From assembly GCF_018424605.1 (NCBI RefSeq), contig NZ_QTKT01000002.1, positions 310,001-374,000 of the forward strand: a stretch of 64,000 bases of DNA, in the 5' to 3' direction. A program made the position numbers and the translations under genes. Each line of letters begins with the position of its first letter. Positions within the stretch are counted from its first letter, which is position 1. Positions 14,716-21,306 of this stretch are shown piece after piece. This DNA is from Marinobacter lipolyticus (lineage in GTDB: Bacteria > Pseudomonadota > Gammaproteobacteria > Pseudomonadales > Oleiphilaceae). The notes beneath the pieces were generated by a model that saw only the letters and a list, made by a program, of their open reading frames with translations, was not told the DNA's origin and searched no databases.

Positions 14716-16848
<2,133 letters not shown>

Positions 16849-21180: not shown

Positions 21181-21207
21181 AAAAAAAAACCCCGCCAAAC
21201 GGCGGGG
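21181..21207 (-). terminator. Rho-independent terminator of the candidate small RNA
   Basis: CCCCGCC (21190-21196) and GGCGGGG (21201-21207) form a 7-bp all-G/C stem with a 4-nt loop. Nine consecutive A on the plus strand (21181-21189) give a perfect U tract only for minus-strand transcription. Plus-strand glpG transcripts would have no U tract here. Confidence 0.85.
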
Positions 21208-21270
21208 CATTAAAAGAGCTTATAGCTCCTGATGAGAGAGACCAAATGAATACGACCTTCGTCATTTGGT
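21182..21270 (-). ncRNA. Candidate Fur-repressed small regulatory RNA, about 90 nt
   Basis: Read on the minus strand, a consensus promoter (TTGACA 21306-21301, 18-bp spacer, TATCAT 21282-21277) predicts a start near 21270. The RNA would begin with ACCAAAUGA pairing with UCAUUUGGU (21262-21270 with 21241-21249). Next come a CU-rich linker (21231-21240), a second hairpin (GAGCU/AGCUC, 21216-21228), then a CCCCGCC/GGCGGGG terminator and nine U. There is no credible ORF and no minus-strand gene downstream. A Fur box overlaps the promoter. The structure fits RyhB/PrrF-type iron-sparing RNAs, but no homology to them was recognised. Confidence 0.65.
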
Positions 21271-21275
21271 GAGTG

Positions 21276-21294
21276 AATGATAATCGTTATCATT
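21276..21294. promoter_or_regulatory. Fur box
   Basis: AATGATAATCGTTATCATT has 8-bp perfect inverted arms (AATGATAA/TTATCATT). Its core TGATAATCGTTATCA agrees with the Fur 7-1-7 consensus at nearly every position. It overlaps the spacer and -10 element of the minus-strand promoter and lies 56 bp before the YeaC-like start codon on the plus strand. Confidence 0.88.
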
Positions 21295-21306
21295 TTTATC
21301 TGTCAA
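21277..21306 (-). promoter_or_regulatory. Sigma-70 promoter of the candidate small RNA
   Basis: On the minus strand, exact TTGACA (21306-21301) and TATCAT (21282-21277) are separated by 18 bp. The Fur box covers the -10 element and about two-thirds of the spacer, so iron-loaded Fur should block RNA polymerase. Confidence 0.75.

Follow-up and report, generated by a model that had tools for sequence, protein, structure and literature searches.

The gap between glpG and yeaC in the analysed Marinobacter lipolyticus DNA (a stretch of 64 kb, referred to here as the window) carries on its minus strand a real and conserved small RNA gene, most likely coding for the iron-sparing RNA of Marinobacter, a genus of oil-degrading bacteria from iron-poor water. 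We consider it highly probable, on comparative grounds, that this gene specifies a Fur-repressed, trans-acting iron-sparing small RNA which is a diverged and relocated relative of PrrF. An iron-sparing role had been proposed in the initial annotation of this DNA, and the sequence comparisons support it: the gene is conserved, its putative seed is invariant and mostly unpaired, and the start regions matching that seed best are mainly those of genes for iron proteins.

Structure of the glpG–yeaC locus

The gap lies between two plus-strand genes, which are, as annotated, GlpG of the rhomboid family and YeaC with DUF1315. The features of the locus are the following.

21301–21306, minus strand: −35 element TTGACA, from the sequence; exact in 86 of 89 distinct Marinobacter copies
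21277–21282, minus strand: −10 element TATCAT, from the sequence; 18-nt spacer to the −35 element
21276–21294, no strand assigned: Fur operator-like palindrome overlapping the −10 element, from a consensus scan (0.02 expected in the window)
21181–21270, minus strand: predicted small RNA of about 90 nt, with predicted start and end; from fold and alignment
21241–21270, minus strand: hairpin 1, stem ACCAAAUGA/UCAUUUGGU, loop with GGUCGU; from fold and covariation
21229–21239, minus strand: invariant seed UCUCUCAUCAG, identical in all 89 distinct copies and for the most part single-stranded in the predicted fold
21214–21230, minus strand: hairpin 2 (GGAGC/GCUCU), standing where PrrF has the 3′ half of its core
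21181–21208, minus strand: intrinsic terminator, 8-bp stem and U tract; from fold, covariation and scan

The promoter could be read directly at 21306–21277 as it had been listed (TTGACA, 18-nt spacer, TATCAT); it has 11 of 12 consensus matches and is the sole promoter-like site in the 1-kb stretch scanned, where 0.4 would be expected. The palindrome that had been placed over the −10 element is AATGATAA-CGA-TTATCATT (21294–21276), with perfect 8-bp arms. When scored against a 19-bp Fur consensus, it is the one site with at most 3 mismatches in the 64 kb (exactly 3, with 0.02 such sites expected). A Fur box over a sigma-70 promoter, as looked for in a PrrF gene, is therewith present by sequence alone, and the source genome contains two Fur-family genes.

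The 91-nt RNA has a predicted folding energy of −34.1 kcal/mol, against −18.8 ± 3.0 for shuffled sequences (z −5.05; 0 of 200 shuffles as low). The fold recovers the 9-bp stem of hairpin 1 at the predicted +1 (21270), leaves the CU-rich linker CUCUCUCAUC unpaired, as had been described, and in the single-sequence prediction also contains the second hairpin. The terminator has its G+C-rich stem, and its U tract does lie on the minus strand; of the nine U of the annotation, the scan counts eight T following the stem and takes the ninth as the last base of the stem itself. An Rfam scan of the full window at gathering thresholds returned two tRNAs only; GcvB, the rnk leader, anti-hemB and other lower-scoring families were discarded at this locus, as they align mainly via the terminator and low-information parts.

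Conservation and covariation within Marinobacter

By BLAST, the gene is found in 88 of 90 Marinobacter genomes, including the source genome, in all cases at E ≤ 1.5e-14. The two genomes without a match are G033, an assembly that is 62% complete, and G081, where a single seed-like stretch was inspected and proved to lack a recognisable promoter, hairpins and terminator in its surroundings. A total of 110 loci were screened; two are cut by contig ends (L098, L104) and one is without the gene (L102), and the remaining 107 were aligned and represent 89 distinct copies. The sequence UCUCUCAUCAG is unchanged in every one of these, and each of the 89 promoters has a Fur box with 0–4 mismatches to the consensus. 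A second genus of the family (G273) likewise has the gene between glpG and yeaC.

Covariation was counted on 56 representative copies (alignment A1), in whose stems 98.0% of cells are paired and 6 of 22 pairs show two-sided changes. Cells with two-sided changes number 45, compared with 15.3 ± 5.4 in shuffles, and none of 500 shuffles reached this value. RNAalifold proposed only hairpin 1 and the terminator; hairpin 2 was added from the single-sequence fold and then counted; its arms vary from GGAGC/GCTCT to GAAGC/GCTTC, with 96.4% of cells paired. The initial annotation had suggested looking for the hairpins in related genomes and had taken their non-conservation as an argument against the gene. 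The stems are kept and covary across the genus, which answers this point in its favour.

A few loci deviate from the common arrangement. In Marinobacter gelidimuriae BF04_CF-4 (L102:1950-2000), the gene is gone in place, with the terminator and a few bases remaining beside yeaC, either through natural loss or through an assembly fault. One Marinobacter genome (G020, locus L184) has two tandem copies that represent a local duplication of the glpG–yeaC gene, with a Fur-like box within 75 nt upstream of both. A metagenome-assembled genome titled Halomonas (PAKW01000046.1, L059) has a Marinobacter-type yeaC together with the RNA gene and is probably mislabelled.

Candidate targets in Marinobacter

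The seed UCUCUCAUCAG is complementary to the ribosome-binding sites of petA, nirJ, phoX, sufB and a cytochrome c gene. The comparisons that follow support the view that most of the start regions best matching the seed are those of genes for iron-sulfur proteins, haem proteins or other proteins with iron. All counts for reversed patterns given below are weak controls, because reversal also affects the codon content and the ATG.

A widespread site is that of petA, which codes for the Rieske subunit of complex III. A search for CTGATGRGAGA at 2–15 nt from a following ATG was positive for 88 of 89 genomes, a tally that includes the RNA gene itself, compared to 10 matches for the reversed pattern; among the matches listed, CTGATGGGAGA-NN-ACCATAATG is present in 45 of 46 genomes. 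The sites were identified as petA from the N-terminus in 12 cases and by HMM in one. The motif persists in G081, the Marinobacter genome in which no copy of the RNA was detected by BLAST.

A search of 124 genomes with the pattern CTGATGAGAGAN{7,15}ATG gave 27 distinct sites (reversed pattern: 5 matches). Five are the RNA gene and 12 precede nirJ (6), phoX (3), cytochrome c (2) or sufB (1); PhoX is an iron-holding protein. Two precede non-iron genes (a quinone oxidoreductase and a TRAP permease), one lies 44 nt before a porin-like gene, six are inside or antisense to coding sequence, and one is without a gene assignment. The HMM check was made on one representative per iron family, the other assignments resting on start sequences. 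A wider search added a site before gltD, a perfect site before a TetR gene, whose duplex is as strong as the best, and one-mismatch versions of CTGATGGGAGA before OsmC- and DoxX-like genes.

Duplex energies, all computed with the seed of the window RNA, beat 500 of 500 shuffled leaders for petA, nirJ, sufB, phoX, cytochrome c and TetR. The p values are 0.010 for gltD and the quinone oxidoreductase, 0.028 for a CDGSH gene, and about 0.12 for the TRAP permease and a CMAS-type methyltransferase (0.116 for the latter). One further possible site lies within the window:

14764–14774, plus strand: candidate target sequence CTGAGGAGAGA, separated by 4 nt from the ATG at 14779; duplex p 0.002

The gene starting at 14779 codes for an FMN/pyridine-nucleotide oxidoreductase with an Fe-S-type motif CX2CX3CX12C, as read by eye. 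Among the start-proximal sites of the source genome, only petA, this oxidoreductase and the CDGSH gene stand out.

Seed sites with one mismatch number 53, against 12 for the reversed pattern, a difference that is not meaningful because CTGATGA is codon-rich. Fifty of the 53 were examined, three on contig C46 being left out. The start-proximal ones belong to petA, the oxidoreductase at 14779, the CDGSH gene and the CMAS-type methyltransferase; further ones overlap, or lie up to 58 nt before, the starts of genes read by eye as FKBP-like (L157), RpoC (L159) and TrpE (L146) and of one gene without assignment (L130). A perfect seed site precedes a small cysteine-rich, unassigned reading frame (MTLCPIAAAMSCTRCPAYKICP..., by eye) at L230 (G073:C5:80887).

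A possible second contact with sodB

The leader of sodB, the classical target of such RNAs, mostly reads GAGAGA..GGGAGAACGACCTCATG in Marinobacter and is without CTGATG; its duplex with the seed, mostly at −13.7 kcal/mol, is no better than those of shuffled leaders of other genes. The loop of hairpin 1, GGUCGU, is complementary to ACGACC beside the sodB start. This loop departs from GGTCGT in 4 of 42 genomes, and in three of these the ACGACC of sodB departs as well: the change is compensatory in G062 (GGUUGU/ACAACC), both elements are lost in G047, and G022 is the third case. The sodB element alone differs in 5 of 42 genomes, with G015 breaking a pair. The covariation is mixed and no more than suggestive of a contact between the loop of hairpin 1 and sodB.

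Relationship to PrrF

In a permissive local scan, the best Rfam match of the locus is PrrF (RF00444) with 37.9 bits, below the gathering score of 90. When RF00444 was run over the source genome, the locus ranked first (E 1.1e-4), the next hit having 20 bits. This search covered 30 chosen whole genomes: the same gene was found in 9 of 10 other family genomes tested (none in G030), the four chosen comparison genomes gave no match, and 5 of 14 control genomes matched at E ≤ 1, none of them over the cut-off. The PrrF model also covers promoter and terminator, so that some of the similarity is what any Fur-controlled RNA would show. A model built from Marinobacter copies alone (R1) recovers five genes recognised as PrrF by Rfam (149–162 bits), with R1 E-values of only 1.7e-5 to 0.003. 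R1 has limited specificity: beyond the family it gave 15 hits with E < 0.001, of which 10 have a PrrF-type core and 5 are plain terminators. Among 35 printed R1 hits, 11 (L176, L179, L189-L192, L195-L198, L200) lack both the core and a Fur box and were rejected as plain terminators.

The seed UCUCUCAUCAG corresponds to the 5′ half of the full PrrF core CUCAUCAGGCUAAUCACGG, and no more than this half is present; a full PrrF-type core is absent from all 15 Marinobacter-family genomes searched. Because the score falls short of the Rfam threshold and the core is incomplete, the gene is filed not under RF00444 but as a diverged PrrF-type variant. PrrF apparently is the nearest relative, which the initial annotation had overlooked, and the Marinobacter RNA, being a diverged PrrF, would be the lineage version of a known RNA.

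PrrF-type genes and petA across the order

The core CTCATCA(N0-2)GCTARTCACGG was detected in 39 of 341 genomes of the order, distributed over seven family groups, with no match in controls. Among 25 other PrrF-type loci compared, 11 adjoin a gene for a cyclic-nucleotide-binding protein, the proteins being 34–75% identical; counted by distinct places, these are 10 of 23, from four families. In this comparison, made within flanks of about 1.5 kb, the neighbour is frequent and not strictly PrrF-defining: it occurs at only 2 of 7 Pseudomonadaceae-type places and is absent at L001 and L173.

Several of these loci are multiplied. The largest array consists of five tandem PrrF-type genes (L181, G339:C3:1546000-1550500; at 1625, 1927, 2204, 2481 and 2758, 277–302 bp apart), each with its own Fur-like box (5–6 mismatches) and with a cyclic-nucleotide-binding protein gene nearby; Rfam PrrF gives the copies 57–66 bits, below threshold. 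Three tandem genes occur in G189 (L182), one of them with a Fur-like box within 75 nt upstream, and two in G126 (L183), neither having such a box within that distance. The loci L385-L396 have a full PrrF-type core and come from families where Rfam recognises none of 11 loci scanned. Ten of them were read: TTGAC is present in 9 (L395 is without it), and 9 have a Fur-like box better than 96% of shuffles (L388 has p 0.057). The Rfam coverage of PrrF looks incomplete.

Of 14 genomes with a PrrF-type gene, 12 have the petA leader motif TGATGGGAGA, against 1 of 11 in which no such gene was detected (Fisher p 0.0002); with one entry per family, the figures are 4 of 6 families and 1 of 11 (p 0.028). 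The exceptions are G189 and G090, with a PrrF-type gene and without the motif, and G104, with the motif and without such a gene. The sample consists of 27 hand-picked genomes with petA, of which 25 leaders were counted (G092, misread, and G132, unread, were left out). Since kinship is only partly controlled, the genomes are hand-picked and the ribosome-binding site lies within the motif, these figures lend support, short of proof, to petA as an old target of the whole PrrF-type family. Where f38 genomes offer enough leader (four cases), CAUCAA is the end of the RNA and petA reads TTGATG (TTGATGGGAGA), and in most Pseudomonadaceae-type genomes the RNA end CAUCAG pairs with the CTGATG of petA (CTGATGGGAGA). 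A matched change of seed end and petA is not claimed, as G095 and G108 break the pattern.

Alternative explanations

The strongest alternative, which we nevertheless regard as unlikely, is an iron-sparing RNA of independent origin that has converged on PrrF, its PrrF score reflecting the likeness of promoter and terminator. A short CU-rich seed matches Shine-Dalgarno sequences and so could arise repeatedly. Such an origin would agree with the lack of the full core in 15 of 15 family genomes and of the 5′ hairpin, with a locus that differs from that of PrrF, with the score below gathering, and with the plain terminators that R1 also picks. However, the likeness extends beyond promoter and terminator into the hairpin before the core, which reads ACCAA...GGTCG...TTGG in both RNAs, and in 10 of 11 family genomes tested it is this gene that RF00444 picks out. 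Moreover, the petA leader motif is common to Marinobacter and Pseudomonadaceae-type genomes, and further PrrF-type forms exist in other families of the order.

It is very improbable that the main role of the Fur box is to control yeaC (DUF1315) on the plus strand, together with its neighbour, and that the minus-strand features are secondary. The palindrome does lie about 55 nt before the yeaC start, but the stretch scanned has no promoter-like site on the plus strand, and the conserved and covarying parts, including the invariant seed, are on the side of the minus-strand RNA. Still more improbable is a small mRNA, or an RNA acting without pairing as a protein sponge: a mechanical minus-strand reading frame crosses the gene, but what is invariant is the stretch that is mostly unpaired and complementary to the targets, and hairpin lengths shift by single bases across copies, which would break any reading frame.

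Proposed mode of action and implications

In the mechanism that we favour, iron-loaded Fur would bind the palindrome and block the promoter, so that the 90-nt RNA, ending in the U tract, would be made when iron is scarce. The unpaired seed UCUCUCAUCAG would then pair with the ribosome-binding sites of iron-protein mRNAs, first of all that of the Rieske protein (petA), and in some species also with those of nirJ, phoX, sufB or a cytochrome c gene. This pairing would block translation and promote decay, probably with the involvement of Hfq. At sodB, a second contact, between the loop GGUCGU of hairpin 1 and ACGACC, may help.

A broader scenario is possible, although we hold it only tentatively. 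PrrF would represent a single branch within a family of Fur-controlled RNAs that spans the order and has petA as its shared old target. In the Marinobacter family, the RNA would have moved its locus, lost half of its pairing core, become a two-contact regulator (unpaired seed and hairpin-1 loop) in co-evolution with sodB, and recruited iron genes specific to the lineage, nirJ and phoX among them, while elsewhere tandem arrays of up to five copies would have formed.

The literature searched (Marinobacter with PrrF, iron-limitation sRNA or Fur-regulated sRNA, and PrrF in Halomonas and related groups, most subscription journals lying outside the scope) contained nothing on this RNA; the single paper with both PrrF and Marinobacter in its text mentions Marinobacter in the reference list only. 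If the proposal is true, a whole genus of marine bacteria has an iron-sparing RNA with ready-made targets, namely the respiratory bc1 complex, joined in certain species by haem d1 synthesis and Fe-S assembly. To the specialist, the surprise would lie in the reshaped core, the link to petA and the wider PrrF-type family, rather than in the existence of such an RNA. The Rfam PrrF family may be only part of a wider one, as the data suggest, and the 89 distinct natural variants can be used to ask which parts of a small RNA serve which target.

Comparison with known systems

RyhB of enterobacteria is a Fur-repressed iron-sparing RNA according to PMC4211561, and so resembles the RNA described here in its proposed role. 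The two RNAs are related in sequence only at the terminator end: RF00057 gives 15.6 bits (E 1.6; gathering score 55), in agreement with the earlier view that the gene is not homologous in sequence to RyhB, and the alignment covers 21223–21183, which is the terminator and a few bases before it.

The PrrF RNAs of P. aeruginosa are described in PMC13104616 as Fur-repressed and acting on sodB, katA and brnD mRNA; complementarity to nap/nir has been predicted with CopraRNA (PMC12004955), and both tandem and distal arrangements of PrrF pairs are described in PMC4211561. ArrF and NrrF are named as PrrF homologs in PMC2851614, which describes ArrF of Azotobacter as iron-repressed with sodB among its targets, a likeness to the present RNA by description only.

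The PrrF-type genes of other families, which are below the Rfam threshold, mostly share TTGAC with a Fur-like box, a CTCATCA-type core and a terminator with the Marinobacter gene. They differ from it in having kept the full core and, in three of these families, in adjoining a gene for a cyclic-nucleotide-binding protein.

With PrrF1 and PrrF2 of Pseudomonas, the Marinobacter RNA has in common the Fur box at a sigma-70 promoter, the terminator, the hairpin ACCAA..GGTCG..TTGG directly before the core, and a core beginning with CUCAUCAG. The candidate targets are of a similar kind, and the petA leader CTGATGGGAGA is shared as well, being present in all five Pseudomonadaceae-type genomes read. Unlike PrrF, the Marinobacter RNA has no 5′ hairpin (hairpin I), which is deleted in the alignment, and the GCUAAUCACGG half of the core is replaced by a hairpin; it is about 90 nt long, is located between glpG and yeaC, and usually occurs as a single copy.
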